Positions 5,842 to 44,923 of a stretch of 64,000 nt of DNA are shown one piece after another (position 1 is the first letter of the stretch; every line of letters begins with the position of its first letter). The stretch covers positions 1,612,001 through 1,676,000 of the forward strand of contig NZ_JOOA01000002.1 of the NCBI RefSeq assembly GCF_000712055.1. Reading direction: 5' to 3'. The DNA is from Ruminococcus sp. HUN007. Lineage in GTDB: Bacteria > Bacillota > Clostridia > Oscillospirales > Ruminococcaceae. The notes under the pieces are model-generated. The model was not told where the DNA came from and did no database searches. It saw nothing but the letters and a program-made list of their open reading frames with translations. Position numbers and translations under genes: made by a program.

Positions 5842-7584
5842 TCAGAGCTTTTCGATTTTCTTTGAAAGGTACTGTCTGAGTTTTGCAAGGTCAGCGAGAT
5901 CAACATCTGCGTCGCCGTCAACATCAAGCGCCTTTTCCTGTATATCGGTAAGTTTCCTGCCGTCAACGAGTGCAATTGCAAGTACGGAAATATCTGAAAT
6001 ATCAACAGTTCCGCTTCCGTTTCCGTCGCCGATTACAAATTCTTCCGCATTATCAGCCGGCGCTGCTGCATTATCTTCCTGCACTGTCGTATCTGCTTCC
6101 GCTGCAAGCGCCTTTTCCACTGTCACTTCTGAAGTTTTCTCTTCTTCGAGCGCTTCAAACTTAATATCACGATCCAAAGCATATTTTTCCGCAGTCGATC
6201 CCCTGTGAGCACGGATAACCATTGACCGAGGGCATAAATAAAACGCTGAATCCACTATATCGACGTTGTCGCTTAATATTGTAACAGTCTTAAGTCCACA
6301 GCTGTCAAAAGCAAATTCACCTATTTTCTCAGTTTTTTCAGGTATAACAATGCTTTCGAGTGATAAACAGCCTAAAAACGCAAATTCTTCAATGGTCTTC
6401 AGCTCTGCCGGAAGCTTTACTTCTTTAAGTTTTTCACAGTGCTCCAGCATGCCGCAATGAATAACAGTCATTTTATCCGGCAGATCAACAGATGTAAGTG
6501 CTGTACTGCTCAGTTCAGCGTTAGGGCGCATATTATTAAAGCCTTCAAAACCTTCAAAGCTTTCCGGAAACGAAATAGACTCCAGTGACTCAAAATTACA
6601 TCCAAAACCATGTCCGACCGTTGTAATGCCTTCTTCTATAACAACATTCTTTACATCTGCCACCCATTCGCTGTTAAAAATCACATCATAAACATCACCA
6701 GTACCAGTTATAGTATAAGTGCCTGTATCCTCGTCATACGACCAGTATGCTGAATCACCGCATATACCCGAAGTTTCAGTACATTCCACGCCATCCACTA
6801 CAAATCTGAGGCAGGCATTTCTGTAAGCATAGCTGCGTCCGTTAGCCCCGTCAGCAATTATCTTCAGATATTCATTATCCTCCGTCCAGTCAAATACATC
6901 TTCACCGTATGTGTCGATGGTTTCCGGAAGGCTGATCTTTCTGAGTTTAAGACAGTTTCTGAAAGCCTGCTTCCCGATAATGACCGTACCATACGGAATA
7001 GCTATCGATTCAAGTGAACAGCAGCCCTTGAAAGCTTCACTTTCAATAACCTTAAGATCATCAGGAAAAGTCACATTACGCAGTTCGTTACAGTTTCTGA
7101 ATGCTCCGTTCTGGATCACGGTAATTTTTGACGGCAGATCTATCTCTTCAAGTGAAATACAGTTACGGAACGAACCGCGTCCAAGCTCCTTCACACTTTC
7201 CGGAATCACCACAGACTTAAGTGATGTGAATTTTTCAAATGCACCGTCTGCTATGGATTCAACACCGTCTCCGATCACAATTTTTTCGACTTCTGCAGCC
7301 CATTTATGTGCTTTGTAAAACGGCTTTGCATTTTCGTCTCCGTTCTCACTCATCATCTTACCGTTTCCGCTTACAGTGAGAGTTTTGCTTTCCGGGTCAT
7401 ACTCCCATTTTACATCTTTTCCGAAACTGCCTGTATAATCTGATTTTTCTGCCTCTTCCGCACTGCTCTGAGAAGCTGCGGTAAGATCGGCAGTTTCTTC
7501 AGCAAATGCAGTAACAGTTGTTCCGGCGGCCATTACAAGTGCAGCCGCTGTCGCGAAAATTCTTCTTAATTCTGCGTTTTTCAT
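5842..7584 (-). CDS. Secreted BspA-like leucine-rich-repeat protein with C-terminal dockerin
   Basis: 580 residues: a signal peptide (ends near AFA, about residue 30), about ten LRR_5/BspA-like repeats of the form F-x-x-C-x-x-L-x-x-I-x-I-P in two blocks (about 70-270 and 310-460), a Glu/Ala/Thr linker and a C-terminal type I dockerin with two calcium loops (GDGNGSGTVDISD and DVDGDADVDLADL). It should be exported and docked on a cohesin-bearing scaffold or surface protein. I chose ATG 7584 because AGAGGT lies 6 nt upstream; ATG 7602 has no such site. Its N-terminal LRR block closely parallels the ectodomain of the adjacent anti-sigma candidate. A MITE-like repeat separates the two genes. Confidence 0.9.
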   Translation of the reverse strand: MKNAELRRIFATAAALVMAAGTTVTAFAEETADLTAASQSSAEEAEKSDYTGSFGKDVKWEYDPESKTLTVSGNGKMMSENGDENAKPFYKAHKWAAEVEKIVIGDGVESIADGAFEKFTSLKSVVIPESVKELGRGSFRNCISLEEIDLPSKITVIQNGAFRNCNELRNVTFPDDLKVIESEAFKGCCSLESIAIPYGTVIIGKQAFRNCLKLRKISLPETIDTYGEDVFDWTEDNEYLKIIADGANGRSYAYRNACLRFVVDGVECTETSGICGDSAYWSYDEDTGTYTITGTGDVYDVIFNSEWVADVKNVVIEEGITTVGHGFGCNFESLESISFPESFEGFEGFNNMRPNAELSSTALTSVDLPDKMTVIHCGMLEHCEKLKEVKLPAELKTIEEFAFLGCLSLESIVIPEKTEKIGEFAFDSCGLKTVTILSDNVDIVDSAFYLCPRSMVIRAHRGSTAEKYALDRDIKFEALEEEKTSEVTVEKALAAEADTTVQEDNAAAPADNAEEFVIGDGNGSGTVDISDISVLAIALVDGRKLTDIQEKALDVDGDADVDLADLAKLRQYLSKKIEKL

Positions 7585-7666
7585 CTTTGTACCTCTTTTC
7601 ATTTTACCATATATATTTCATCTTCCCGTGGAACACTGAACATATGATCTTCACGGCCACGTCCGC

Positions 7667-7782
7667 TTAAGGAAACGCTGATTTATTCATAAATCAGCGC
7701 GGGGTCCGGGGCGAAGCCCCGCAAATACCACCTCCGGAAATCCGGCGAAGCCGGATTTCCGATTTAATCAGTGTATCCTTAA
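7667..7782. repeat. MITE-like palindromic repeat, copy 2 (full length)
   Basis: 116 bp, with terminal inverted repeats TTAAGGAAACGCTGATT / AATCAGTGTATCCTTAA and three internal hairpins (around TTCATAA, GGGGCGAAGCCCC, and CCGGCGAAGCCGG). It lies 2 bp from the stop codon of the anti-sigma candidate. Confidence 0.85.
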
Positions 7783-7784
7783 GT

Positions 7785-8957
7785 TCAGTCTTCGATCTGT
7801 TCGTATTCAAGACCATTCTGCAAAGCATATTCACGTGTGTCTTCATAGCCTTTTATAACCAGCATACTGTTGTCCTCCTGAGGGTCAAAAACAAGACTTC
7901 CGAAACTTACCGAATGTCCGTAAATAACCGCTTCTCTGAGCATCAGGCAGTTCTGAAAAGCATTGTCTTCTATCTTTGCGGTACTTTCCGGTATAACTAC
8001 AGTTTTCAGTGAGCAGCATCCCTTAAACGTTTCGCTCCTGATTGCATCAATACCCTCAGGTATATTTACCGACTTAAGAGAGTTACAGTTCATGAATGCA
8101 CCCGTTTCTATCTCAGTTACACCTGACGGAATGATGACATTTTCAAGAGAAACACAGTTTCTGAATGAATCACTTCCGATCTTTTTCAGACTGTCCGGAA
8201 GCGAGACTGTCTTTAAAGAAACAAATTTACAGAATGTATCTGCACCTATGGATTCCACTCCTTCAGAGACCACCACATGTTCCGCATCACTGACCCAGCT
8301 AAACCGTTTCCCGTCAGTGAATATCTCATCATCTTCCGGTTCCATAAAACCGGATCCGCTTATGGTAAGAGTCCTGTTTCCGGAATCGTAATTCCAGTTC
8401 ATATTTTTTCCGTATGCTCCGGAATACTGATCACTGTTTTCTGATCTGCTTTCATGTGATTCTGTTACGATATATGTTTCTTTTGGTTCATCCGGTTTTT
8501 CAGTCATCGGCTCAGTATTCTGACGTTCGTCGGCTGATATTCCATTATTCTCTTCGTTTTTCCTGATTCCCTCGTCACGAGACTCAGTAACATCTGTACT
8601 GATACTGGTTCCTGGCGTTCCTTCGACTGGAATACAGACCGTATTTTCCGTGATCACTGTCGTTTCAGAAACTCTGACCGGAGTAACAGAAGTACCTGAA
8701 GTTTCTTCCGCCATCAAACTGTCAGCAACTGTAATGCTTGTTATCACCGGTGTGAAATTGCCGTCTTCGCTTCTTTCAGGAAGATTGGCTGTAATGAGTA
8801 ACAGGACCGCAGCGGCATATCCGGCACAGATAAAAAATATTCTGTTTTTATTTTTCCCTCCGCTTTTCTTTTCCGGATCAGCTTCAGCTATGTACTTTTC
8901 AGATATGTCTCCGAAACTTTTCAGGATCACATCGCTTTGTTTTGTATTATCACTCAT
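7785..8957 (-). CDS. Membrane anti-sigma factor candidate with extracellular LRR domain
   Basis: 390 residues: a short cytoplasmic segment (1-38), one membrane helix (about 40-58), a Thr/Ser/Glu-rich stalk (60-175), then an LRR_5/BspA-like ectodomain (about 175-380) beginning with the same GAYGKNMNWNYD-type entry motif as the neighbouring secreted LRR-dockerin protein. No enzyme motif is visible. It starts 13 bp after the ECF sigma gene, with AGGAG 7 nt before the ATG, the usual place for a cognate anti-sigma factor. The anti-sigma role is an inference from topology and context; the cytoplasmic part is too short for a recognisable classical anti-sigma domain. Confidence 0.65.
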   Translation of the reverse strand: MSDNTKQSDVILKSFGDISEKYIAEADPEKKSGGKNKNRIFFICAGYAAAVLLLITANLPERSEDGNFTPVITSITVADSLMAEETSGTSVTPVRVSETTVITENTVCIPVEGTPGTSISTDVTESRDEGIRKNEENNGISADERQNTEPMTEKPDEPKETYIVTESHESRSENSDQYSGAYGKNMNWNYDSGNRTLTISGSGFMEPEDDEIFTDGKRFSWVSDAEHVVVSEGVESIGADTFCKFVSLKTVSLPDSLKKIGSDSFRNCVSLENVIIPSGVTEIETGAFMNCNSLKSVNIPEGIDAIRSETFKGCCSLKTVVIPESTAKIEDNAFQNCLMLREAVIYGHSVSFGSLVFDPQEDNSMLVIKGYEDTREYALQNGLEYEQIED

Positions 8958-8970
8958 CTTCTTACTCCTG

Positions 8971-9528
8971 TCAGAATAGTCCGCGTTTTTTCAAGAATTC
9001 TTTCAGTTCTGTTCTGGTCCTGCAAAGCATGGTCCTGAGAGCTGCCCCGGAAATATCGTTCCGCCCCGCAATATCATCCAGCGATTCGAGATAGAAATAT
9101 CTCTGCACGAAACAGATCCTTTTTTTCTTATCAAGGGTTCCGAGAAAATCATCGAGAGCTTTCATAATTTCCTTTCGCTCTATCTCCGACACCACGTTGT
9201 CCCTGCCTTCAAGACATTCTTCAAGTTCTTCAAGTGAAAGGGCGACCTCAGAGGCGCATCTTTTGGAAGCTTTTCTTTTTTCATAGATATTGAGTGCAGT
9301 ATTTCTGGTGATCCTCGCAACAAACGCCTTCAGTATCTTCGGAACCTGCGGCGGTATTGAATTCCACACTTTGAGATAACTGTCATTCATACATTCCTCA
9401 GTATCTCCCCTGTCTCCGAGAATGTTGTCCGATATCTTTCTTAAATACGTACCGTACTTGTTATCAGTCTCTCTGATCGCATTCTCAGATCTTTCATTAT
9501 ACAGGGATATTATCTCTTTGTCTTCCAT
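8971..9528 (-). CDS. ECF-type RNA polymerase sigma factor
   Basis: 185 residues with an ECF sigma region 2 (about 25-95; TEECMNDSYLKVWNSIPP matches the core-binding/-10 recognition helices) and a region 4 helix-turn-helix (about 130-180; YFYLESLDDIAGRNDISGAALRTMLCRTRTEL-like layout). It should direct RNA polymerase to alternative promoters when its anti-sigma partner releases it. Start ATG 9528 has GGAGAG 5 nt upstream. It heads the transcript that continues into the LRR anti-sigma candidate. A vegetative-type promoter and an ECF-like motif (TGTAAC-N17-GTCATT) lie upstream. Confidence 0.9.
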   Translation of the reverse strand: MEDKEIISLYNERSENAIRETDNKYGTYLRKISDNILGDRGDTEECMNDSYLKVWNSIPPQVPKILKAFVARITRNTALNIYEKRKASKRCASEVALSLEELEECLEGRDNVVSEIERKEIMKALDDFLGTLDKKKRICFVQRYFYLESLDDIAGRNDISGAALRTMLCRTRTELKEFLKKRGLF

Positions 9529-9578
9529 AATGCTCTCCAGATCAAAATATTTTACCGGTGAAATATCCTTTCATCTTC

Positions 9579-9607
9579 AATGACAGAAAAAAACGAATAT
9601 TGTTACA
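9579..9607 (-). promoter_or_regulatory. Candidate ECF-type autoregulatory promoter of sigma gene
   Basis: On the minus strand, TGTAAC (9602-9607), a 17-bp spacer, and GTCATT (9579-9584). This resembles the TGWAAC / CGTC-type promoters of ECF sigma factors and would let the sigma factor activate its own gene. It is inferred from pattern only. Confidence 0.4.
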
Positions 9608-9674
9608 GGATTTTCTGAATTTTTTTTATTTTTCTTTTTTCGTTCGAAATACGCATTCAGCTTTATTCAATTAT

Positions 9675-9703
9675 ATTGTATTCAAATTCACAGTGCAAGT
9701 CAA
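9675..9703 (-). promoter_or_regulatory. Vegetative-type promoter upstream of ECF sigma gene
   Basis: Minus strand: -35 TTGACT (9698-9703), 17-bp spacer, -10 TACAAT (9675-9680). Confidence 0.6.
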
Positions 9704-9723
9704 TAATTTATACGGATGAAAAA

Positions 9724-9774
9724 AGCTGCCTTCGGCAGCTGTTCGATAGTATCATGCATCTCGATGCATGATAC
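9724..9774 (+). repeat. Double-hairpin repeat with T-tract, copy 1
   Basis: A UUCG-loop hairpin (GCTGCC-TTCG-GGCAGC type), a 9-nt linker TGTTCGATA, then a 12-bp stem (GTATCATGCATC... pairing) and a T-run. An almost identical copy lies at 16148-16197. It looks like a compact terminator module; no plus-strand gene ends before it. Confidence 0.75.
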
Positions 9775-9814
9775 ATTTTTTGATGGATTGCATAATTTTC
9801 TCAGAAAATTTGGC

Positions 9815-9843
9815 TTGACAGCATTATATTACTGTGTTATAAT
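9815..9843 (+). promoter_or_regulatory. Promoter of the ilvA T-box transcript
   Basis: Consensus -35 TTGACA (9815-9820), 17-bp spacer, -10 TATAAT (9838-9843), directly before the T-box leader. Confidence 0.85.
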
Positions 9844-9849
9844 ATTTTC

Positions 9850-10136
9850 AAATAAAAGCTGTGACGAAGACGGAACCTGCGATGAATTTTTCAGAGAGCC
9901 GGTGGTGGTGCGATACCGGTAAAGGACTGCAGAGCTTCTCATCCCTTCCGAGCCGGAAACCCCAAAGGTTCACACCCAGTAGGCGTTTCACGTGTATGCT
10001 GCGTCAGTGCATAGAAGTTGTCAGACTTCGAAGAGGTGGCGGATCATCGAATCCGCAATTTGAGTGGTACCGCGAGTATTAAGAACAAATACCCGTCTCA
10101 AAGCTAATACGTGCTTTGAGGCGGTTTTATTTTTGC
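9850..10136 (+). ncRNA. T-box leader, probably isoleucine-specific
   Basis: The conserved T-box bulge sequence TGGTACCGCG is at 10065-10074. Stem I has the usual CAGAGAG and GGTGGTG apical elements; on its 3' side the triplet ATC (9941-9943) sits where the specifier codon is expected (before CCTTCCGAG), which reads isoleucine. An intrinsic terminator follows: a 12-bp stem (10093-10124) and a T-run. Uncharged tRNA-Ile would favour the antiterminator and ilvA expression. The specifier call is by eye. Confidence 0.85.
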
Positions 10137-10240
10137 CTCAGAGCTTCACACAACTGCTGCATGCGGTCTGTACTGTACTGACATACAGAACAGACATGCC
10201 GTGCCGCAAACATCTGGAAGTAATGAAAGGCGGAATAATC

Positions 10241-11431
10241 ATGCTTACACTCGACAAGGTATTCGACGCACAGACAGTGCTCAAAAACATCATCAGGGAA
10301 ACAAATCTGGTAAGAGCTCACGGTATTGCACCGAAATGCGAGCTTTATCTTAAACCGGAAAACCTTCAGTTCACAGGATCGTTCAAGATCCGCGGAGCTG
10401 CATACAAGATCGCGATGCTCTCACCTGAAGAAAAAAAGAACGGCGTAATCGCGTGCTCGGCCGGAAACCATGCGCAGGGCGTTGCTCTTGCGGCAACTAA
10501 AAACGGAATAAAGTCACTCATCTGCCTGCCGGACACTGCACCTATATCTAAAATAGAAGCGACAAAAGGATTCGGTGCGGAAGTGTGCCTTGTGGAGGGA
10601 TGCTACGACGACGCATACCGCAGAGCACTTGAACTCCGTGACGAAAAGGGATATACATTCGTCCATCCTTTTGACGATGAAAATGTTATCGCCGGACAGG
10701 GAACTATCGCTCTGGAGATACTTAATGATATCGACAATATCGATGCCATCGTCGTTCCGGTCGGAGGCGGCGGACTTATTTCCGGTATAGCCTACACAGT
10801 CAAACAGATAAGACCATCTGTTAAGGTGTACGGCGTACAGGTGACCGGTGCCCCGAGCATGTTCAATTCCGTAAAAAACGGTCAGATCGAATGCCTGTCA
10901 TCCGTTTCAACTATCGCCGACGGCATTGCTGTAAAGCAGCCGGGTGAAAACACGTATTCCCTCGTAAGCGAATATGTTGACGAACTGGTTCTCGTAAGCG
11001 ACGACGAAGTCGCCAGTGCCATCCTCGCACTCATCGAAAAGCAGAAAATGGTGGCAGAAGGCGCCGGTGCTGCCGCAGTTGCAGCAGTAATGTCCGGAAA
11101 ACTCGACGTTGACGGCAAGCGTGTTGTGGCAGTAGTATCCGGCGGAAACATCGACGTTACGAGTCTTTCAAGAGTTATCGACCGCGGCCTTCTCAACTCG
11201 GGACGTTCAACAAGTCTGCTTATCGAGCTTATCGACAAACCGGGCCAGCTTAAGGAGATCTCACGTATAATCGCCGACTGCGGCGGCAACGTTACCGGCG
11301 TTCACTACGAAAAAGGTGCAACTGAAAGCGTCAACGGATGCTACCTGCGTATCAACATGGAAACAAGGGATTTCGACCACGTTGAACTTATCACACGTTC
11401 CCTCCGCGAGGCTGATTTCAAGCTTGTCTGA
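10241..11431 (+). CDS. ilvA: Threonine ammonia-lyase (threonine deaminase) with ACT domain
   Basis: Pyridoxal-phosphate enzyme that converts threonine to 2-oxobutanoate, the first step of isoleucine synthesis. The PLP lysine lies in GSFKIRGA (about residues 46-53), a glycine-rich phosphate loop is present (VGGGGLISG), and the last 75 residues form an ACT-like regulatory domain. The 396-residue length fits the short, single-ACT class. I chose ATG 10241, with AAAGGCGG about 9 nt upstream; the open frame extends left through the leader, but no ribosome site supports a longer protein. The Ile T-box leader supports the biosynthetic rather than purely catabolic role. Confidence 0.92.
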   Translation: MLTLDKVFDAQTVLKNIIRETNLVRAHGIAPKCELYLKPENLQFTGSFKIRGAAYKIAMLSPEEKKNGVIACSAGNHAQGVALAATKNGIKSLICLPDTAPISKIEATKGFGAEVCLVEGCYDDAYRRALELRDEKGYTFVHPFDDENVIAGQGTIALEILNDIDNIDAIVVPVGGGGLISGIAYTVKQIRPSVKVYGVQVTGAPSMFNSVKNGQIECLSSVSTIADGIAVKQPGENTYSLVSEYVDELVLVSDDEVASAILALIEKQKMVAEGAGAAAVAAVMSGKLDVDGKRVVAVVSGGNIDVTSLSRVIDRGLLNSGRSTSLLIELIDKPGQLKEISRIIADCGGNVTGVHYEKGATESVNGCYLRINMETRDFDHVELITRSLREADFKLV

Positions 11432-11492
11432 TCTTTCGGTTGGCAATTTCGGAATGAATGCCTGATACATTTTTTAAGGCAGCGAAAACAGA

Positions 11493-11540
11493 AAGCATCT
11501 GCAGAGTATGCGCACATATACTCATACTCTGCAGATGCTT
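11493..11540 (+). terminator. Terminator after ilvA
   Basis: A perfect 18-bp stem (AAGCATCTGCAGAGTATG and its complement) with a 12-nt loop and a run of seven T. A promoter-like TTGGCA-N17-TGATAC (11441 region) just before it resembles the 33-bp repeats near 23 kb. Confidence 0.85.
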
Positions 11541-11579
11541 TTTTTGCACTCATGGGGAGTTCCTTAACGTTCCGTTTTT

Positions 11580-11698
11580 CTAAGGAAACACTGATTAAAT
11601 CGAAAATCCGGCTTTGCCGGATGATTTCCGGAGGTGGGATTTGCGTTGCTTCGCCCCGGACCCCCACGCTGATTTATGAATAAATCAGCGTTTCCCTA
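11580..11698. repeat. MITE-like palindromic repeat, copy 3 (inverted)
   Basis: About 119 bp, in inverted orientation relative to copies 2 and 4, with the same ends and internal hairpins. It ends 9 bp from the stop codon of the gene at 11708. Confidence 0.85.
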
Positions 11699-11707
11699 AA
11701 CGATCTA

Positions 11708-12073
11708 TTATAATTCACACAGAATTTTAATATTATCAGATTCCCATTTTTCCAATAAGCGAATATACTTTTCATCACTGTTTATTATATTAATTCTGTC
11801 TCTCAGTTCACTTACCGCTTTATAAACATCATATTTTCTTAATGGCTGATTTATTCTATCCATGAATTTATTATATCTCACTAAATAATCCTCATAGTTT
11901 TGAATTAATGAATCAACTTGTTTTATCCTCGCAAGCATCAAAGATTCATTTGAAGGAAGATAATTGCCTTTTTGAAATGCATCTTCTTTAAAATACAAAC
12001 ACGATCCGGAATATTTTAAAAAGTATTCAACAGCCGAAAAAGTATCTGTCACTTCATTCAGTACTGGCAACAT
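11708..12073 (-). CDS. Unknown; second copy of a C-terminal repeat of the upstream gene
   Basis: 121 residues, alpha-helical, not recognised. It aligns with the C-terminal part of the adjacent 488-residue protein (shared MLP start, AxxYxLxY, NYLPSNESL / IFNSDETL, YEDYLVRYNKF / YEKYLIRRNEF). The reading frame stays open for about 40 codons upstream of its ATG and continues the homology (FEYANKWMLP beside YDYFEKWMLP). Restoring one A in the poly-A region near 12166-12172 would fuse it to the upstream gene as a ~650-residue protein with two tandem repeats. It therefore probably is the end of that gene rather than a separate gene. Confidence 0.5.
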   Translation of the reverse strand: MLPVLNEVTDTFSAVEYFLKYSGSCLYFKEDAFQKGNYLPSNESLMLARIKQVDSLIQNYEDYLVRYNKFMDRINQPLRKYDVYKAVSELRDRINIINSDEKYIRLLEKWESDNIKILCEL

Positions 12074-13524: not shown

Positions 13525-13625
13525 TGTGGCATCTCCTTTCCGAAAACATATTGGCAGTACAAATCGATAAGCTCATATCAGAACTTGCAAGAATTTTTAT
13601 TCGTTTGTCTTTTAAAAATATATTG

Positions 13626-13655
13626 ATTATAACATTCTCCAAAAGCATTTGTCAA
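13626..13655 (-). promoter_or_regulatory. Promoter of the 12058-13524 gene
   Basis: Minus strand -35 TTGACA (13650-13655), 18-bp spacer, -10 TATAAT (13626-13631). Confidence 0.7.
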
Positions 13656-13784
13656 GGTGCTTAAGTGATGAAAATGAAAAGGTGAGCTGCCTTGTTACTA
13701 TTCACGACCTAATTTTCCCAGTACAAAAGAAAACAACACCACTGGACCGGTTTTATTACCGGCCTGGTGGTGCTGTATTTTTTA

Positions 13785-15542: not shown

Positions 15543-15562
15543 AGCTTGCTTCCTGTTCTGTT

Positions 15563-15934
15563 TTATTTCTGTTCCAGCGCTCTTTCTGCTGATTCCTTTA
15601 TGTTCAGTAAGTGATTTTTAAGAATAGCATTTTGTTTTTCAAGTTCGCTGATTCTTTTATCTTTCTGTATACTTTCTTCTTTTAGTTTTTTTATGATTTC
15701 CTTGTAATCCGGTTCTGCTGTTACCTTCGTTTCAACAGTATTGCTATTTGATTCTGATTTAGCCTTTCGTCCCGGCTTTCCTGTAGACGGTATCAGTTCT
15801 CCCGTTACCGGATCTTCCACTCCAAGATACTTGCGTATTGGTCTTGATTGTTTGGTTACAGGGTCGTAGTGTGATGTTGATTCATAAAGAACCACTCTTC
15901 CGGTTTTCTTATCTGTGTAGCGTACAATCGACAT
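15563..15934 (-). CDS. IS66-associated accessory protein
   Basis: 123 residues, basic N-terminus (MSIVRYTDKKTGR), a GKPGRKAK stretch, and a C-terminal coiled coil (about 75-115). It ends 20 bp before the transposase start inside the same insertion sequence, so it is part of the element. Its start at 15934 has AAAGGAAG upstream; the longer frame to 15997 has none. The role in transposition is unknown; DNA binding is plausible from its charge. Confidence 0.75.
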   Translation of the reverse strand: MSIVRYTDKKTGRVVLYESTSHYDPVTKQSRPIRKYLGVEDPVTGELIPSTGKPGRKAKSESNSNTVETKVTAEPDYKEIIKKLKEESIQKDKRISELEKQNAILKNHLLNIKESAERALEQK

Positions 15935-16059
15935 GATTTCAGCTTCCTTTCTACACTTGGTACTTATTATTATATCACATACCAACGAAAATGTCAATAG
16001 TTTTATTGGTATCTATTTAAACAAATACCACTATGCTTTTTTGTACTTTTTTTACGTAA

Positions 16060-16108
16060 AAAAACAGTGCTGAAAACATCGCATTTTCAATGTTTTCAGC
16101 ACCATTAT
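16060..16108. terminator. Hairpin at the right end of the IS
   Basis: A 13-bp stem (GTGCTGAAAACAT and its complement) inside the right end of the insertion sequence. It may insulate the IS genes from outside transcription. A comparable stem (CACCACTGGACCGG region, 13738-13773) lies at the left end after the transposase gene. Confidence 0.6.
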
Positions 16109-16147
16109 CATTTTTCTATTTTACATTATTTGGCCGTGAATAGTAAC

Positions 16148-16197
16148 GCTGCCTTCGGCAGCTGTTCGATAGTATCATGCATCGCGATGCATGATAC
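16148..16197 (+). repeat. Double-hairpin repeat with T-tract, copy 2 (interrupted by the IS)
   Basis: Same 50-bp sequence as 9724-9774 with one or two changes, ending in a T-run. Its first 8 bases are the right-hand target duplication of the IS; the left half of the original context lies at 13681-13693. Confidence 0.8.
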
Positions 16198-16301
16198 TTT
16201 TTTTATTTGTATTCAGGCAAAATTAGTGATATAATAGTAGTGTGCACATCAGGTACGGAATATCTGAATGTGACAAACATATTTTAAAAGGAGATTGTTG
16301 T

Positions 16302-16337
16302 TTGAACAATAATAACAGACCTGAGATAGCAGCGTAA
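16302..16337 (+). CDS. Possible 11-codon leader peptide before a GNAT gene
   Basis: A TTG-initiated frame encoding MNNNNRPEIAA, with AAAGGAG 8 nt upstream. Its stop codon abuts a 10-bp stem (16338-16347 with 16366-16375). The CCTCC arm of that stem could instead pair with the GGAGG of the acetyltransferase ribosome site (16396-16400). This is the layout of translational attenuators. It is an inference; no known leader family is claimed. Confidence 0.4.
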   Translation: MNNNNRPEIAA

Positions 16338-16408
16338 ACGGAGGTTTGCGAAACTATCTAACAGTAAGCCTCCGTAGTCCGGTCAAACTATTTCAGGAGG
16401 AAAAAACA

Positions 16409-17071
16409 ATGAATAAATATGACTATATTATCCGCAGAGAAACAGAAAACGACTACCGCGAAACGGAAAACCTTACCCGTGAGGCTTTCTGGAATCTTAA
16501 CACACCCGGCTGTTTTGAGCATTACTTCGTACACATCATGAGAAGTCACAGGGATTTCATACCGGAACTTGATTATGTCATCGAGCTTGACGGCAAAGTG
16601 ATCGCCAATGTTATGTACTGCAGATCAAAGCTCGTCGATGAACAGGGTAATGAGAAAAATATCATTACTATGGGGCCGCTGTGTGTACTCCCTGAGTATC
16701 AGCGTAAAGGATTCGGAAAAGCCCTTCTTGAACATACTTTTAAAATCGCAGAGTCAATGGGATTTGACGTTGTTATAAACTTTGGAAATCCTGATAACTA
16801 CGTTTCCCGCGGCTACAGAAGCTGCAGAAAGTACAATGTATGCTTCGGCGAAGGTGAAGGATTTTTCCCTGCCGCTCTTCTTGTAAAGGAACTTAAAGAA
16901 GGTGCCCTCGACGGCAGAAAGTGGTTCTATCGTCCAAGTGATGTAGATACTCCATGCGATGACGAAGCCGCAGTTACGGAATTCGACAAGCTTTTCCCGC
17001 CAAAGGAAGCCGGCTGGCAGCCAAGTCAGGAAGAATTCTATATTCACAGTCATTCGGCGATAACGTGGTAA
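16409..17071 (+). CDS. GNAT-family N-acetyltransferase
   Basis: 220 residues. The acetyl-CoA binding signature is clear: VLPEYQRKGFGKALLEHTF (about residues 95-113; Q/RxxGxG/A motif), with the preceding core strand MGPLCV and a following VVINFGNPDNYVSRGY segment. The substrate is not predictable. ATG 16409 has CAGGAGG 8 nt upstream; an upstream in-frame start at 16346 lacks one. The leader region suggests post-transcriptional control. A terminator (17104-17139) follows, so it is monocistronic. Confidence 0.85.
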   Translation: MNKYDYIIRRETENDYRETENLTREAFWNLNTPGCFEHYFVHIMRSHRDFIPELDYVIELDGKVIANVMYCRSKLVDEQGNEKNIITMGPLCVLPEYQRKGFGKALLEHTFKIAESMGFDVVINFGNPDNYVSRGYRSCRKYNVCFGEGEGFFPAALLVKELKEGALDGRKWFYRPSDVDTPCDDEAAVTEFDKLFPPKEAGWQPSQEEFYIHSHSAITW

Positions 17072-17103
17072 TACCAGATTACGTGTTATCTGTCTGAAAA
17101 AAG

Positions 17104-17139
17104 AGAACAGTCCGGTTTCACTGTAAGCCGGACTGTTCT
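17104..17139 (+). terminator. Terminator after first GNAT gene
   Basis: 12-bp stem AGAACAGTCCGG with its complement and a 12-nt loop; only a short T-tract follows. Confidence 0.65.
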
Positions 17140-17226
17140 TGTATAGTAAACATAAAAATCTGCATGCGTTCACTGTAATTCAAACGATACATCACATTTA
17201 TGAAAAACACGAACAGGAGAAAAGAT

Positions 17227-17712
17227 ATGACCAAGGACAAAGCGTATATTATAAGGAAACTCAGAACTAATGAAACTGAACTGCTGAAAGATTTTCTCTA
17301 TGAAGCCATATTTATTCCGGAAGGCGTGAAACCTCCGGAAAGAGATATTATTGAAAATCCCGAACTGAGAGTCTATACAGATGATTTCGGATCCCGCAGG
17401 GGTGACAACTGTCTTGTGGCCGAATTTAACGGCAAAGTTGTCGGTGCAGTCTGGACACGTATCATGGATGATTACGGCCATGTGGATGACGAAACTCCAT
17501 CTTTTGCGATTTCTCTGTACAAGGAATACCGCGGACAGGGCATCGGAACGGAACTTATGAAGGAAATGCTTGATGTGCTGAAAGCACAGGGATATAAACG
17601 CGCATCACTGGCAGTGCAGAAAGCCAACTATGCGGTGAGAATGTACCGAAATGTTGGCTTTAAAACCGTGGATGAAAATGACGAGGAGTACATAATGGTA
17701 TGTGATTTATAA
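17227..17712 (+). CDS. GNAT-family N-acetyltransferase
   Basis: 161 residues with the acetyl-CoA motif ISLYKEYRGQGIGTELMKEML (about 94-114, RGQGIG loop) and the C-terminal YRNVGFK segment of RimI-like enzymes. The substrate is unknown. The ATG at 17227 has AGGAGA about 7 nt upstream and is preferred to the in-frame ATG at 17200. It is not closely similar to the preceding acetyltransferase. A short hairpin and T-run follow (17729-17752). Confidence 0.85.
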   Translation: MTKDKAYIIRKLRTNETELLKDFLYEAIFIPEGVKPPERDIIENPELRVYTDDFGSRRGDNCLVAEFNGKVVGAVWTRIMDDYGHVDDETPSFAISLYKEYRGQGIGTELMKEMLDVLKAQGYKRASLAVQKANYAVRMYRNVGFKTVDENDEEYIMVCDL

Positions 17713-17993
17713 CGACCATTTACGGAAACAGCACGCAAGCATGCTGCTTTTTTAGATATATCACCTTATCAGCTCCGGCGGAATGAACGACGGATCGAAG
17801 TGTACGTGTGAATGATTGTACACGATAAGTTTATGACTGATGAGTTATCCGGTTTCCTGAGTTTACTTATTACGATATGTCTCAAACATATTATATAGTA
17901 TTCAAGTGATTTTGTCAAAAAATAATTATTAAAATCGAAAACGGCAGCACACTGATCATGACGATCGATGTGCTGCCGTTGGTTTTTTTATCT
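17713..17993. other. Intergenic region with orphan minus-strand promoter and terminators
   Basis: Holds a short plus-strand hairpin with T-run (17729-17752), a consensus minus-strand promoter (TTGACA 17913-17918, 17-bp spacer, TATAAT 17890-17895) with no minus-strand gene ahead of it, and a strong terminator-like hairpin (17941-17979). A transcript from the orphan promoter would be about 160 nt and could end at the hairpin near 17729. No protein gene is seen. Confidence 0.5.
17941..17979. terminator. ACGGCAG-family hairpin terminator, copy T1
   Basis: A 17-bp stem beginning ACGGCAGCACACTGATC, followed by a run of T. It is one of four related hairpins (others at 21625, 22335, 24467). It also faces the end of the Cys-rich mini-gene on the minus strand. 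Confidence 0.75.
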
Positions 17994-18200
17994 TTATTTC
18001 AAATCAATTTTACATTTGAAATTCTGACAAGTCTGATTTGCGGATGTATCAGTGCCCCTTTTGATACATCTGCAGCGGCCGGATGGTTCGAGATACCACT
18101 GCGTGTTTATATTCGGCTTAATATACTGACATGCCGGATCCCACCAGTATTTACAGAAAGCGCAGTACTTTACTGCTGTTAAATTGACTAACATCGCCAT
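17994..18200 (-). CDS. Cysteine-rich mini-protein, 68 residues
   Basis: Seven cysteines in 68 residues, in the order CxxC (13, 16), C24, CxC (43, 45), C58, C63, with WW and two Trp/Tyr-rich turns. The spacing suggests a zinc- or disulfide-stabilised fold. There is no signal peptide, which favours a cytoplasmic metal-binding protein. The ATG at 18200 has GGAGGA 7 nt upstream, which supports a real gene. I do not recognise the family and assign no function. It lies just downstream of the dockerin anti-sigma gene on the same strand and may share its transcript upstream. Confidence 0.6.
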   Translation of the reverse strand: MAMLVNLTAVKYCAFCKYWWDPACQYIKPNINTQWYLEPSGRCRCIKRGTDTSANQTCQNFKCKIDLK

Positions 18201-18264
18201 TTTCTTATCCTCCGTTTTCCCTTGATCATGCCATCCGATAAGGTGCTGTTTTTATAAATCAGCG

Positions 18265-19194
18265 TTAAAGATCATTTGTCGGAATTAAATATTCACCATT
18301 AATATAACCCATGATTGCTTCTGCGTCTTCAGATGTTATTTCTCTATTATCAGACGGTCTGTAAGCATCTGCATTTGCAAGCGCCTGTTCAGCAAATTTA
18401 GGATCAACGTCTTTTTGTTTTTTATAAAATTCCACCCATGATGTTCCTTCAAAATAATTAACATAGTTACGTACCAGAACAGCATCTTCAATATCAATAA
18501 TATTATCGCCGTTGACATCTCCGCACATAGTCGGCTGCAGAACTGGTTTTACAGTAGTAACAGGAATTGTTACAGCTTCTGTTTCAGGTTCCTGGGTAGT
18601 AACTTCAGGTTTTGAGGTAACAACTTTAGCTTCTGCTACTGTATTTTCAGGCTTTTCTTTATTATCATTTACATGTACATCAGCAACAGACTTTTGTGTA
18701 ACTGACGGTTTATCTGTATCAGCATTAACGGTTTTAGCTTCGGATGCCGATTCAGATGAAGGCAAAGCAGTCAGTGTATCACTTACAGGTTCAGTCACAG
18801 AAACTTCTGATGAAACTGCTGAAGTGTCATTTACAATTACGGCTTCATTCACAATTGTTGCACTAGTTGTGGTATCTTCAGTTTCAGAAGTGGTCTCTGA
18901 AACTTTATTCTGATCATTATCACCAGAAATGAGTTCATTTGTGTATTCGATAAATTTCATGAGCCCAAGGCATAATACAATACCGGCACAAAAAGCTAGT
19001 GCAGTGTAAATATGACGGATCTTAGGTGATTTTGACTGACCCTGTTCAACTACTGATGTATCGTAGGTAATATTCTGCTTATTATCAGTTTTATCTGACT
19101 TATTAGCCTGTTCCTGACGCTGTCTGATTATTTCGTCACTTCTTTTAAGTACTCTTTCGGCTATTTTCAATGTAGTTTCATCATATTCCCTCAT
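18265..19194 (-). CDS. Membrane anti-sigma factor candidate with extracellular dockerin
   Basis: 309 residues: a charged cytoplasmic helix (1-35), basic linker, one membrane helix (about 61-82), a Thr/Ser/Val/Glu-rich stalk (90-220) and an unusually long dockerin-like module (223-309) beginning CGDVNGDNIIDIED and ending ITSEDAEAIMGYINGEYLIP. That module matches module 3 of the divergently encoded five-dockerin protein, including the inserted segment between the two calcium loops. The start overlaps the ECF sigma stop by 14 bp, with GGAGGGG upstream, the layout of a sigma/anti-sigma pair. The anti-sigma role is inferred. A dockerin on a sigma regulator would tie it to cohesins outside the cell. 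Confidence 0.7.
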   Translation of the reverse strand: MREYDETTLKIAERVLKRSDEIIRQRQEQANKSDKTDNKQNITYDTSVVEQGQSKSPKIRHIYTALAFCAGIVLCLGLMKFIEYTNELISGDNDQNKVSETTSETEDTTTSATIVNEAVIVNDTSAVSSEVSVTEPVSDTLTALPSSESASEAKTVNADTDKPSVTQKSVADVHVNDNKEKPENTVAEAKVVTSKPEVTTQEPETEAVTIPVTTVKPVLQPTMCGDVNGDNIIDIEDAVLVRNYVNYFEGTSWVEFYKKQKDVDPKFAEQALANADAYRPSDNREITSEDAEAIMGYINGEYLIPTNDL

Positions 19195-19735
19195 AACTGA
19201 ACCCCTCCTTTTCTAAAATATTTCGCAGCGATTCTTTTGCGCGATACAGCAGATTTCTTATCTGCCGTTCTGTTTTTTTCATGATCGCAGCCGCTTCCGG
19301 ATTACTGAATCCTTCAAAAAACACAAGATACAAGACCTGTTTATAATCATCCTTCAGTTTTTCCATTGCTCTTAGAAGATGTCTTTTTTCTTCATCTTTG
19401 ATATAGTTTCGTTCAATATTTTCTTTATCAGCTATGCTGTAAAAGTCATCTATAGATTCTTCAGGATGTCTTGACTTTTTCTTCAGACTATTGAATGCAA
19501 TATTCTTCCCTATCGTATAGATCCATGTTTTAAAAGAACACTTCTCCGAAAACTTCGGCCTGTCAGCACATAGTTTTACGAAAGTGTCCTCGGCAAGTTC
19601 CTCGGCAGCGCAGAAATCATCAACAATGCTGTTAATAAAGAGAACAAGGCCTTCTCTGTAATCAGCTATTATATCGATAATGGCATCTCTGTCACCTTCA
19701 AGGAAACGGCGGTAATACACTGCCCCGTTGTCCAT
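19181..19735 (-). CDS. ECF-type RNA polymerase sigma factor
   Basis: 184 residues with region 2 (about 20-85; DDFCAAEELAEDTFVKL and FKTWIYTIGKNIAFNSLKKK) and region 4 (about 120-175; LYLVFFEGFSNPEAAAIMKKTERQIRNLLYRAKESL). It is distinct from the ECF factor at 8971. I chose ATG 19735, with AGGAGA 12 nt upstream, a slightly long spacing; the in-frame ATG at 19777 has no site. A consensus promoter (19805-19833) drives it. It is translationally coupled to the dockerin anti-sigma candidate. Confidence 0.9.
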   Translation of the reverse strand: MDNGAVYYRRFLEGDRDAIIDIIADYREGLVLFINSIVDDFCAAEELAEDTFVKLCADRPKFSEKCSFKTWIYTIGKNIAFNSLKKKSRHPEESIDDFYSIADKENIERNYIKDEEKRHLLRAMEKLKDDYKQVLYLVFFEGFSNPEAAAIMKKTERQIRNLLYRAKESLRNILEKEGFSYEGI

Positions 19736-19804
19736 AATAATCTCAAATCTCCTTTCAAATGTATTATAATCCCGCATTTACTCATTATAATACGTCTCTT
19801 ACCT

Positions 19805-19833
19805 ATTATATAGTATCCTGGTATCATTGTCAA
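19805..19833 (-). promoter_or_regulatory. Vegetative-type promoter of sigma/anti-sigma operon
   Basis: Minus strand -35 TTGACA (19828-19833), 17-bp spacer, -10 TATAAT (19805-19810). Confidence 0.8.
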
Positions 19834-19853
19834 AAAAATATTTTCAAAACAGG

Positions 19854-19882
19854 TGAGACAAATCAGCCGGAAGGTTGTCTAA
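19854..19882 (+). promoter_or_regulatory. Candidate ECF promoter before the five-dockerin gene, copy 1
   Basis: TGAGAC (19854-19859), 17-bp spacer, GTCTAA (19877-19882), then a GAAAG/CTTTC hairpin with a 10-nt loop that would lie at the 5' end of the RNA. Identical spacing recurs at 19949 and 22792. Confidence 0.45.
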
Positions 19883-19948
19883 GTAATGAAAGAACAATAA
19901 AGCTTTCAGAACACAGAAAACAATCTTTCAAAAAAATTTAAAAAAGGG

Positions 19949-19977
19949 TGAGACAAATTCACCGGAAGATTGTCTAA
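19949..19977 (+). promoter_or_regulatory. Candidate ECF promoter before the five-dockerin gene, copy 2
   Basis: TGAGAC (19949-19954), 17-bp spacer, GTCTAA (19972-19977), 95 bp after copy 1, followed by the same hairpin geometry. The gene start is about 100 bp downstream. Confidence 0.45.
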
Positions 19978-20079
19978 GTAATGAAAGATAAATAATTCTT
20001 TCAAAATTCCGGATGCGCATCTGAGAAAAACAAAAAAGAGTTAGAAAAATTATAACGATTTATTACGGAGGTTTCAATT

Positions 20080-21579
20080 ATGAAAACTAACAGAGTTTTA
20101 GCAGGAGTATTAGCGCTTTCATTAACAGCAGGTGTACCTGCATCTTTCGGCAGATATGAGACTACTAACCACACAGTAAAGGCGGAAGAAACAGCGTCGC
20201 TTTACGGAGACGTCAACTGCGACGGCATCGTTAATATAAATGATCTGAAGTGCATCACAGATTATTTCAGGGATCCGGAAGCTAATCCGATAACTTCTCA
20301 GAGTGAAATAAACGCACACACGGACACATGGCCGGGGCTTTCCACGGGCGATATAACCGCACTGATAAAATACCTTGCCGGTACAGTCAGTGAACTCCCG
20401 ACTGATGATTATAAAGTGATACGTTTTGAAAGAGACCCAGAAGAAACAGAAGACGGCGAACGTGGAGTAAAAGGAGATGCAGACCGTGACGGCGATGTTG
20501 ACTTCGATGATTTCAATCTTATGCTGGAATATGCTGAAAATCCGGATATTATTCCTGATACGAGTTCCCTGACATGGTGGCAATACTACATTAACGTAGA
20601 ACATACCAGCCCGGTCGGCAATGGTATGGGCGAATATCCTTTACCGTATATGCTTGATTATCTTTCAGGATTCCATGGGAAAGTATATGACTGTAAAAAT
20701 CCTCTGCTCAACGTCTACACTGACCACATGAAGTTTGAGATCACAACAGAGCCGGAATACGGTGACTATAACTGTGACGGTGTGGTTGACATTTTCGATG
20801 TATCTGAAATGCAGAATCTTATCAATCAGGTCGAAGATTTTAGAATAAGAAAAGCCGATAATCCTAATGCAGTGAGAATAACCAATTATGTTACTGCCCA
20901 GGGTTTAAGAAACGCTGATGTTTTCAATCCGGGTACAGGGATTACACAGGAAGATGTAGATACAATCATGAATTATATCAACGGTAAGAACCTTCTTCCG
21001 GTTACCGAAAAAGATTATGTAAGATTCACGCCTGTCACAGGGGATTTCAACTGCAACAACCAGTTTGATATCGGCGATGCGATCCAGCTCTGGGAATACA
21101 TCGCAAAAGACGTATCACGTGTAGAATATGATCCTACCGAACAAGGCATTAAGAACGCCGATCTGGTACAGGATTCGGAACTTGATTACGCTGACCTTGA
21201 TCAGATGTTCAAAGACCTTAAAGCCGGCAAAACGAAGGGCACAGTAACTGAACCAAAACCATCTACTGAGCCATCCGCCAATCCTTCAGCAGAACCATCG
21301 GTCGCACCGTCATCAGAGCCTTCCGTTATTCCGTCAGTCACACCAACAGCAGCACCTTCTGCTGTTGTAACAGAGCCAGATCTGACTTTGGGCGACGTAA
21401 ACTGCGACGGAAAGATCGACATTTCCGATCTTTCAAAACTTGCTATCGCACTTGTTGACAAAGAGGAACTTCCTGAGGAGTTCGTAAAGCGTGCAGACGT
21501 TGACAAGGACGGCAAGATAACTCTTACTGACCTTGCTGCTATCAGACAGTTTATTGCAAAGAAGATCACAGAGTTCTGA
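20080..21579 (+). CDS. Secreted protein with five dockerin modules
   Basis: 499 residues: a signal peptide (about 1-22), then five dockerin-like modules opening with GDVNCDGIVNIND, GDADRDGDVDFDD, GDYNCDGVVDIFD, GDFNCNNQFDIGD and GDVNCDGKIDISD. Modules 1-4 have long insertions and degenerate second loops; the last, after a Pro/Ser/Thr/Glu linker (about 395-435), is a canonical dockerin with second loop DVDKDGKITLTDL. No catalytic domain is present. Such a protein could bridge several cohesins or act as a calcium-binding structural protein. It has a strong site (ACGGAGG) before ATG 20080. It is divergent from the ECF sigma operon and preceded by two ECF-like promoter motifs, which suggests it is the target of that sigma factor. 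Confidence 0.85.
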   Translation: MKTNRVLAGVLALSLTAGVPASFGRYETTNHTVKAEETASLYGDVNCDGIVNINDLKCITDYFRDPEANPITSQSEINAHTDTWPGLSTGDITALIKYLAGTVSELPTDDYKVIRFERDPEETEDGERGVKGDADRDGDVDFDDFNLMLEYAENPDIIPDTSSLTWWQYYINVEHTSPVGNGMGEYPLPYMLDYLSGFHGKVYDCKNPLLNVYTDHMKFEITTEPEYGDYNCDGVVDIFDVSEMQNLINQVEDFRIRKADNPNAVRITNYVTAQGLRNADVFNPGTGITQEDVDTIMNYINGKNLLPVTEKDYVRFTPVTGDFNCNNQFDIGDAIQLWEYIAKDVSRVEYDPTEQGIKNADLVQDSELDYADLDQMFKDLKAGKTKGTVTEPKPSTEPSANPSAEPSVAPSSEPSVIPSVTPTAAPSAVVTEPDLTLGDVNCDGKIDISDLSKLAIALVDKEELPEEFVKRADVDKDGKITLTDLAAIRQFIAKKITEF

Positions 21580-22791: not shown

Positions 22792-22820
22792 TGAGATAAA
22801 TCAGGCATTAGCTTGTCTAA
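22792..22820 (+). promoter_or_regulatory. Third copy of the TGAGAC-N17-GTCTAA motif
   Basis: TGAGAT (22792-22797), 17-bp spacer, GTCTAA (22815-22820), followed by GAAAG/CTTTC hairpin with a 10-nt loop. A divergent minus-strand promoter (TTGACA-N17-TATAAT) lies just left, as at 19.8 kb. It may be a duplicate of that intergenic region. Confidence 0.4.
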
Positions 22821-22948
22821 GTAGTGAAAGAAAAATAATTCTTTCAGAATTCTAAATGAAAAGTCTAATAAGACATTATACCTGAAACTCCTTTCGGAAC
22901 GAATAATAACTGCATTAACGACCATATACGAAACCATCTCCATGTTTT

Positions 22949-37214: not shown

Positions 37215-37247
37215 TGAAAAGCACCTCCGAAAATCTTTTGTCTGCAA

Positions 37248-37535
37248 AAACAAAAACGTCCTTGACAGACTCGTTAAAAATCTGTCAAGGACGAATAAAT
37301 TATCCGCGGTACCACCTTGATTCACAGCCTTATGCTGCGCACTTAACAGGATACTATCATATCCCTGATGCTTAACGCACATCGTAACGTCGCCGAATAC
37401 TCTGGATCAGATGATCCATTTGACTGCGCCCTCAGCGGTCCATTTGCTAACCTGTTTTTCATCCGGCTCTCAGCTTACCCGGACTCTCTGTAGAAGCATA
37501 ACTAGCTTTATCTCCGCGTCAACGGTTTTCAATGT
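37248..37535 (-). ncRNA. Tryptophan T-box leader of the trp operon
   Basis: Minus strand. The T-box sequence TGGTACCGCGG maps to 37304-37314. The specifier triplet at 37440-37442 reads TGG (tryptophan), on the 3' side of stem I before ACCGCTGAG. A 14-bp terminator stem (CGTCCTTGACAGAC and its complement, 37257-37294) with a T-run precedes trpE. Uncharged tRNA-Trp should allow read-through into the operon. Confidence 0.93.
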
Positions 37536-44806: not shown

Positions 44807-44923
44807 TTAAGGAAACGCTGATTTATTCATAAATCAGCGTGGGGGTTCGGGGCGAAGCCCCGTAAATCCCACCTTCGGAAATCCGGCGAAGCCGGATTTC
44901 AGATTTAATCAGTGTTCCCTTAA
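44807..44923. repeat. MITE-like palindromic repeat, copy 4 (full length)
   Basis: 117 bp, same orientation and internal hairpins as the copy at 7667. It ends 6 bp from the stop codon of the gene at 44930. Confidence 0.85.

Follow-up and report, generated by a model that had tools for sequence, protein, structure and literature searches.

Paired ECF sigma factors and one-helix membrane proteins in Ruminococcus sp. HUN007, with ectodomains that in part mirror neighbouring secreted proteins

Two sigma factor modules and their secreted neighbours

The window (the whole analysed stretch of 64,000 nucleotides) contains two modules in which a gene for an ECF sigma factor is followed by a gene for a membrane protein with one single hydrophobic helix; genes, strands, coordinates, gene order and one-helix topology are all as the first-pass annotation had described them. 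Sigma factor 1 (8971-9528, minus strand, 185 amino acids, family A) exceeds the cut-off of the ECF family TIGR02937, is barely over the Pfam cut-off for Sigma70_r2 and under the one for r4_2; the profile of family A matches ECF structures such as SigW along almost all of its own length. TM protein 1 (7785-8957, minus strand, 390 amino acids), a probable anti-sigma factor delineated by topology, Pfam and alignment, is encoded on the same strand at a distance of 13 nucleotides, and the next gene of the putative operon (5842-7602, minus strand) encodes a secreted protein of 586 amino acids that was recognised by its open reading frame and Pfam matches and consists of two LRR blocks and a C-terminal dockerin (5866-6030, minus strand, PF00404, E-value 1.3e-6).

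TM1 has a cytoplasmic segment (residues ~1-39), a membrane helix (40-58), a stalk rich in T, S and E and an LRR ectodomain (residues 177-382; 7812-8429, minus strand; LRR_5, E-value 1.1e-33). Residues 161-382 are 42-43% identical to the first LRR block of the secreted neighbour (residues 40-263; 6814-7485, minus strand) and this parallel, already proposed from the sequence, is the best match in the entire 4.2-Mb genome (187 bits, with 97.6 bits at the second-best place). TM1 homologues at 60-64% identity have a conserved LRR end (alignment of seven proteins including TM1 itself), and in one further genome of the genus (G004) 71 bp separate the TM gene from a secreted LRR-dockerin gene behind it, with 44% identity between ectodomain and neighbour. 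The interval between TM1 and the secreted gene contains a palindromic dispersed repeat (7668-7780, minus strand) that is longer than the entire 71-bp gap in G004; one of its ends recurs at 44808-44839 and similar ends are found upstream of the loci L047 and L054.

Sigma factor 2 (19181-19777, minus strand, 198 amino acids, family B) has both Sigma70_r2 and r4_2 above cut-off. Its gene overlaps with that of TM protein 2 (18265-19194, minus strand, 309 amino acids) by 14 nucleotides; of the overlaps mentioned in the first-pass annotation only this one exists, the first module having the gap of 13 nucleotides. TM2, too, is a probable anti-sigma factor. Topology, AlphaFold2 and homologue alignment delineate a cytoplasmic helix, a membrane helix (62-88; hydrophobic stretch at 64-82), a stalk of ~120-130 residues and a dockerin ectodomain (residues 222-306; 18277-18531, minus strand); AlphaFold2 predicts both helices and, with confidence, the C-terminal domain, with low confidence for the stalk (90-209). 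Database searches returned 20 homologues, and the alignment of TM2 with 19 of these has a variable stalk with conserved ends on both sides. Foldseek had no match to the whole TM2 model at an E-value of 0.001 (best 0.003); both Foldseek and VIA-align were queried with this whole model only, which hardly probes the cytoplasmic part.

The divergently transcribed gene (20080-21579, plus strand) encodes a secreted protein of 499 amino acids, and its five dockerin-like modules described previously correspond to five PF00404 stretches. The third of these (20752-21027, plus strand) is the closest relative of the TM2 ectodomain in the genome: it matches TM2 residues 223-307 with an E-value of 1.5e-6, the next match having 0.0102, in a ranking of at least 150 dockerin matches (150 of 309 candidates were scored). 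In pairwise comparisons with the ectodomain, dockerin-like module 3 reaches 49.7 bits and modules 2, 4 and 5 reach 19-26 bits, with none reported for module 1. As had been noticed before, dockerin-like module 3 and the TM2 ectodomain have in common an unusual long insertion ahead of the second loop. Profile and fold (paired loop-helix units) of the ectodomain are those of a type I dockerin; its first calcium loop is canonical and the second is lengthened and non-canonical, yet conserved among homologues, and cohesin binding may therefore be lost or altered. The same genome encodes cohesins, two of which (L066 and L067) resemble lipoproteins. The ten fetched cohesin loci (L065-L074; short loci, several with incomplete frames) have no sortase motif.

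A family of sigma factor pairs and the extent of mirroring

Both modules belong to a large set. The stretches fetched around search matches, which are not a genome-wide census, contain 28 related ECF sigma genes of the same genome, 25 of them with a one-helix protein as the next gene (one of these partners, L051c, being a piece of 68 amino acids). Absence of sigma-TM co-occurrence elsewhere had been named in advance as evidence against the proposal; across the genus, the next gene encodes a one-helix protein for 97 of the 105 scored sigma genes, which are distributed over 10 of 11 genomes (G007 has none) and remained after 17 of 122 sigma matches with less than 80 bits were dropped. Outside the genus, 72 loci have a downstream open reading frame that can be read, and the same adjacency is found in 66 of them (6 of the 80 loci of the broader locus set have no such frame).

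The cytoplasmic segment of the TM proteins is conserved, with a motif like L..AIG.IDDKYI.EA, and its divergence tracks the divergence of the sigma factors (r = 0.58 for 49 pairs; the maximum of 5,000 permutations was 0.22), a pattern that adjacent genes inherited together would show as well. The TM proteins are probably anti-sigma factors, judging from these sequence features. No named anti-sigma domain was detected with Pfam and NCBIfam in 67 of 68 TM proteins from the cross-genome contig set (L125, with 1,752 amino acids, was omitted; 65 of the 67 are from outside the genus and L139 and L151 are from genus genomes, 100% identical to L207 and L212), nor with Pfam in 78 of the 97 TM proteins of the genus, the 19 omitted ones including several very long proteins. 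Those 67 proteins also had no match to a dockerin or LRR family; the 78 genus proteins include six with dockerin, six with LRR_5 and three each with PASTA, transpeptidase and solute-binding family matches.

In a permutation test on the fetched stretches, the best match of the ectodomain was the neighbour in 8 of 16 modules (1.35 expected), with some orthologous modules counted in more than one genome, one open reading frame dropped because it was judged to be a fragment of an anti-sigma gene, and L050c, whose neighbour sits in the next fetched locus, counted as near. Mirroring in this genome exceeds chance (p = 0.001), with three of seven matchable modules having their best match elsewhere; for seven smaller genomes combined, one of three was near (p = 0.33). 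The first-pass annotation had described two such modules: both are real, but many sigma/TM modules exist and, of 15 tested in this genome, four match their neighbour. Iterated profile searches detected no neighbour match for the other 11 (L047, L048a, L048b, L049a, L049b, L050a, L050b, L051a, L052, L053 and L055). A match within the own genome was shown for 24 of 97 genus ectodomains, and one search for recurrence of mirroring scored 150 of 199 candidates. The modules that mirror are of unlike types (LRR, dockerin and the types of L210, L214, L236 and L254). Mirroring thus recurs beyond the two modules but is not universal.

Promoter-like boxes

Upstream of sigma1 is an ECF-like promoter (9567-9607, minus strand) with the sequence TGTAAC-N15-CTGTCATT, then GATGAAAGG, and similar boxes are present upstream of L047 and L054. 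The first promoter pattern for family A matched at least 20 of the 105 sigma upstream regions and was too strict; since the upstream regions were read by eye and the strict pattern failed, autoregulation of family A via an ECF-like promoter is only weakly suggested.

Sigma2 has a housekeeping-type promoter (19805-19833, minus strand; TTGACA-17-TATAAT, 12 of 12 positions). Between this and the secreted gene are two repeat copies, 82% identical and 95 bp apart (19835-19911 and 19930-20006, plus strand), each with an ECF-like box, the first directed towards the secreted gene (19855-19892 and 19950-19987); the secreted gene is thus preceded by two tandem boxes similar to the ones found upstream of related sigma genes. 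A third copy of the box with one mismatch (22793-22830, plus strand) precedes an AAA_14/DUF4143 gene (23114) by ~280 bp. Since TATAAT is part of the GTGTATAATA box, a housekeeping promoter plus an activator site is possible. The family-B box pattern was derived from sequences that it later matched exactly, and with one mismatch it was found at 5 places, versus 6 for the reversed control. The genes behind the box that precedes another family member are mostly of secretion type, as judged by eye; of 21 places at which a box was located, five had served to define the pattern. By a simple rule, the background of secretion-type genes is 55 of 236 genes of at least 150 amino acids in the own-genome stretches.

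A possible switch and its relation to known systems

We consider it about an even chance (probability roughly 0.5) that the modules are ECF sigma/anti-sigma switches of a Clostridia type, in which ectodomain and secreted product have a ligand in common, whose availability the ectodomain signals. A one-helix anti-sigma factor, of a type found throughout Clostridia, would keep the ECF sigma factor at the membrane, its short N-terminal cytoplasmic segment (residues 1-38 of TM1 and 1-60 of TM2) being the putative sigma-binding part. Within the genus, the extracellular end appears to have been swapped repeatedly for a module that is also present in the secreted protein encoded at the same locus, which often bears a dockerin, and sensor and product would thereby have a common binding partner, for the second module probably a cohesin at the cell surface and for the first some LRR ligand. 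As long as the partner is unoccupied, the long stalk would let the ectodomain reach and bind it, binding would cause proteolysis or release, and the sigma factor would transcribe the secreted protein until the product occupies the sites and thereby ends the signal; that binding activates, rather than represses, is suggested by analogy to RsiV and RsgI. In a more specific version, which is tentative and less likely than not, cellulosome-forming ruminococci would monitor how their own surface complex is assembled: membrane-tethered decoy dockerins and LRRs would vie with the secreted subunits for vacant sites and tune the output of exactly these subunits in parallel paralogous switches, each adapted by copying a module from its own product.

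Plain local duplication would leave local likeness of this kind as well. The switches could be real and the resemblance to the neighbour a by-product of duplication and shuffling in a genome rich in dockerins and LRRs, with the ectodomain sensing something unrelated. Duplicates land close by default, LRR and dockerin modules are abundant in this genome and 11 of the 15 tested modules have no neighbour match. Against this, several dissimilar types of modules mirror their neighbours, the TM2 dockerin is conserved despite its variable stalk, and the pair in G004, together with the conserved LRR end of the TM1 homologues, makes the duplication look old and retained; we regard this explanation as rather doubtful.

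Ectodomain and partner module are paralogues and repeat proteins often self-associate, so that the ectodomain might also contact the secreted protein directly (LRR to LRR, or dockerin to dockerin-like module), as product feedback or a quorum-like sensor. Dockerins, however, are known from solved complexes to bind cohesins, and the TM2 ectodomain shares their fold; we find direct contact improbable. Least probable of all, with only a slim chance, is that the TM proteins are membrane anchors that show dockerins and LRRs and are regulated by the adjacent sigma factor without any anti-sigma role: this would agree with the failure of Pfam and NCBIfam to recognise a known anti-sigma domain in the scanned proteins, but a conserved cytoplasmic segment, constant gene order and parallel divergence across unlike ectodomains fit an ECF anti-sigma factor.

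If the shared-ligand reading holds and ectodomain and product bind the same partner, the neighbour becomes a guide to the target of each sensor, and the cell, a fibre-degrading gut bacterium, may sense whether the docking sites of its secreted protein are filled. According to a comparison of genomes (PMC4081043), the control of cellulosome components of ruminococci in the rumen still awaits explanation, and a 2024 survey concludes that a suite of RsgI receptors is found in Acetivibrio-type producers only (PMC11557425). A large ECF set with ectodomains of cellulosome type would give rumen fibre degraders a testable regulatory system, for which the promoter-like boxes name candidate target genes.

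The sigma/anti-sigma kind itself is already known, from SigI/RsgI and sigma24C-Rsi24C; neither dockerin ectodomains nor neighbour mirroring came up in searches of the open-access literature. SigI/RsgI of C. thermocellum and Acetivibrio form paralogous pairs, often near dockerin genes, with autoregulation (PMC3413522, PMC6056542). Shared features are the many paralogous pairs in a cellulosome producer and the build of the anti-sigma factor, here a probable one, in which an extracellular module is joined through the membrane to a part that binds the sigma factor. However, SigI is described with SigI-C instead of region 4 (PMC6056542), and the sigma factors here have regions 2 and 4; the ectodomains described for RsgI are CBM, PA14 and GH, whereas those here are dockerin, LRR and others, some mirroring the neighbouring secreted protein. 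Membership in SigI/RsgI was ruled out, as the sigma factors carry ECF regions 2 and 4 and there is no RsgI-type Pfam or NCBIfam match. The first-pass annotation was right to separate the families from SigI/RsgI, but left out a precedent of the sigma24 type: sigma24C-Rsi24C of C. thermocellum (Cthe_1470-1471) combines a sigma24-type factor with a GH5-like membrane protein (PMC3990059). It is likewise a pair of sigma factor and membrane protein in a cellulosome producer (compared by description, with sigma24 read as ECF from the name), but a single one, and the available text describes neither a dockerin or LRR ectodomain nor mirroring of a neighbour.

In SigV-RsiV of Bacillus subtilis, also an ECF sigma factor with a membrane anti-sigma factor, RsiV is itself the receptor of a protein ligand and is cleaved after binding lysozyme (PMC5014341); the ligand is thus lysozyme, and the accessible part of that source indicates no likeness of the ectodomain to a secreted product of the operon. 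For Ruminococcus flavefaciens, similar LRR-dockerin proteins are described that are secreted, as are cohesins of the cell surface with group 2 and 4 dockerins as their partners (PMC2930009, PMC5429695), but in the available sections of these papers none of the dockerins is part of a membrane anti-sigma factor. Searches of the open-access literature yielded no dockerin- or LRR-bearing anti-sigma factor, no neighbour mirroring and no ECF system for the R. flavefaciens cellulosome. One feature of the membrane helix is a possible hint at RsgI-like processing: an Ala-Ala site is missing from the helix of TM2, but is found in 67 of 80 and 59 of 66 helices of the family, in comparison to 81 of 192 control helices, which are themselves above their own shuffles.

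Sigma genes and their one-helix partners

The first-pass annotation had described two modules, each consisting of an ECF sigma gene, a gene for a one-helix membrane protein (TM protein, a probable anti-sigma factor) and a gene for a secreted protein. In module 1 these are sigma1 (8971-9528, minus strand), TM1 (7785-8957, minus) and an LRR-LRR-dockerin protein (5842-7602, minus); in module 2, sigma2 (family B, 19181-19777, minus), TM2 (18265-19194, minus) and a divergently encoded protein with five dockerin-like modules (20080-21579, plus). All six genes were confirmed at these coordinates and their domains, originally assigned by eye, were borne out by domain search. The 4.2 Mb genome (four contigs, with the window at C2:1612001-1676000) has at least 150 dockerin matches and 24 cohesin stretches past the cut-off if counted singly, with five more once neighbours in frame are considered. 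With large multi-cohesin frames clustered at C2:1.47-1.48 Mb, it has the appearance of a Ruminococcus flavefaciens-type cellulosome producer.

Modules 1 and 2 are two among many. Within the stretches fetched around profile matches, the genome has 28 related ECF sigma genes, and in 25 cases the next gene encodes a one-helix protein. For the genus, 11 genomes were searched and the neighbourhoods of matches fetched: of the 105 sigma genes scored, which come from 10 of these genomes, 97 are followed by a one-helix protein. A wider collection contains at least 589 confirmed sigma relatives; among the best 80 of these loci (two from genus genomes), 74 have a readable downstream ORF, with a membrane helix in 68 (66 of 72 outside the genus). 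The TM proteins have a short cytoplasmic motif in common, roughly L..AIG.IDDKYI.EA, which has no Pfam or NCBIfam name in the TM proteins scanned. Divergence of motif and sigma factor is correlated (r 0.58; 49 representatives of 85), as would be expected of partners and equally of co-inherited genes. Modules are densely clustered at C2:1.98-2.19 Mb (L048-L053), and in at least four of these (L048a, L050a, L050b, L051a) the TM gene is followed, 11-96 bp later and in the same orientation, by a secreted gene.

Ectodomains and their resemblance to neighbouring secreted proteins

Dockerin and LRR ectodomains are each present in six of the 78 genus TM proteins scanned and in none of the 67 scanned in the wider collection, of which two lie in the genus and 65 outside it. 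PASTA and transpeptidase domains occur in three of the 78 each, and the one-helix sigma partner at L263:5500-7245 (minus) has an ectodomain matching a penicillin-binding transpeptidase. Other sigma partners (L201:4448-7003, L212, L232, L235-L237, L243, L244, L246) are about 850-1,090 aa long, with large ectodomains in which a propeller-like region and a solute-binding protein appear to be joined, judged from inspection by eye and from matches to a solute-binding family in 3 of the 78; in our genome the copy, L053, seems to be divided by a frame change.

In a third module, L051b, the closest genome dockerin to the dockerin ectodomain is encoded immediately upstream (68% identity; 96.8 bits versus 92.7 for the next non-TM place, with 150 of 199 candidates scored). 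At L210 of the genus genome G004, the ectodomain matches the product of the next gene with 48% identity over 104 residues; this is a secreted protein with dockerin-like repeats, judged by eye, for which Pfam gave no match. Further types of such mirroring are seen at L214, L236 and L254. In permutation tests within genomes, with "near" meaning a best match within 6 kb of the module, 4 of 7 matchable modules of our genome (G000) had a near best match (0.66 expected, p 0.001), as did 3 of 6 in G004 (p 0.003) and 4 of 6 in G008 (p 0.0003); seven other genomes together yielded 1 of 3 (p 0.33). For G000, G004, G006 and G003 pooled, it was 8 of 16 versus 1.35 expected, equalled in none of 20,000 permutations. 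Mirroring is not universal: L047, L048a and L052 have their best match elsewhere, and iterated profiles detected no neighbour match in 11 of 15 tested modules of our genome, several of these 11 being followed by secreted dockerin genes.

A possible sensing mechanism

Gene order, topology and conserved ends are consistent with ECF sigma/anti-sigma switches. Sensor ectodomain and secreted product are paralogues, which suggests a common ligand. By analogy with RsiV and RsgI, an ectodomain binding a vacant site would activate the sigma factor, and the secreted product would then occupy vacant sites. For RsiV, ligand binding to the anti-sigma factor is described as initiating its cleavage (PMC5014341). 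A cell-surface cohesin would be the natural candidate ligand for module 2, since in R. flavefaciens dockerins of groups 2 and 4 attach to surface cohesins (PMC5429695) and the genome encodes two adjoining cohesin proteins with lipoprotein-like starts (Cys after the signal peptide; L066 and L067, C2:3096511-3097927), possible membrane-bound partners of tethered dockerins.

The general kind, a sigma/anti-sigma switch with a sensing ectodomain, is known from SigI/RsgI, and the pair sigma24C-Rsi24C has a GH5-like ectodomain on Rsi24C (PMC3990059). Dockerin or LRR ectodomains and the mirroring of an adjacent secreted protein appear new: the open-access literature searched yielded neither of these on an anti-sigma factor, nor any such ruminococcal system, and regulation of ruminococcal cellulosome components is described as yet to be understood in PMC4081043.

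Promoter-like boxes and other window features

Upstream of sigma1 lies a putative ECF-like box, TGTAAC-N15-CTGTCATT (9567-9607), recognised from sequence only; similar boxes precede L047 and L054. The module-1 secreted gene is on the same strand as TM1, and in G004 its counterpart lies 71 bp after the TM gene. In our genome the two genes are separated by a palindromic dispersed repeat (7668-7780, minus; one end also at 44808-44839, minus) ending in ATAAATCAGCGTTTCCTTA, and L047 and L054, two further sigma genes, have this end upstream as well.

The sigma2 promoter is of housekeeping type by sequence (12 of 12 positions). Upstream of the divergent secreted gene are two tandem 77-bp repeats, 82% identical and 95 bp apart, each with TGAGACAAAT..GTCTAAGTAATGAAAG, an exact pattern without further occurrence in the genome. 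Spacing and core of these boxes recur in the upstream regions of L049a, another family-B sigma gene of our genome, and of some family-B genes of relatives. The looser pattern GAC-N17-KWCTAANNNNTGARRG occurs at exactly three places (both module-2 boxes and L049a), from which it had been built, and this shows rarity of the pattern, not promoter function; at one mismatch there is no excess (5 places versus 6 for the reversed control). One such copy lies at 22793-22830 (plus), roughly 280 bp ahead of a gene for an AAA_14/DUF4143 ATPase, and may mark an additional target or be a relic.

The third family-B sigma gene, L049b, is preceded by AGATAWYY-N11-GTGTATAATA, defined on its upstream region and four nearby secreted genes; from this position we infer that the box belongs to L049b. 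When up to 2 mismatches are allowed, 21 places carry it, versus 2 in the reversed control. Eleven of the 21 have at most 1 mismatch. One of these lies before the sigma gene; of the remaining 10, 9 stand before a gene whose product has a secretion-type N-terminal sequence (one is a lipoprotein), and at least 4 of these 9 products have dockerin-like loops by a simple pattern. Without the five pattern-defining places, a secretion-type product follows 5 of 6 boxes; the background is 55 of 236 genes by a rough rule in the fetched stretches of our genome.

Elsewhere in the window, 37687-44490 (minus) encodes a surface protein of 2,267 aa that has 14 SpaA stretches in addition to an ice-binding-like adhesive domain. 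Downstream of it is an Rfam T-box leader (37284-37531, minus), which overlaps the start of a 544-aa gene (35748-37382).
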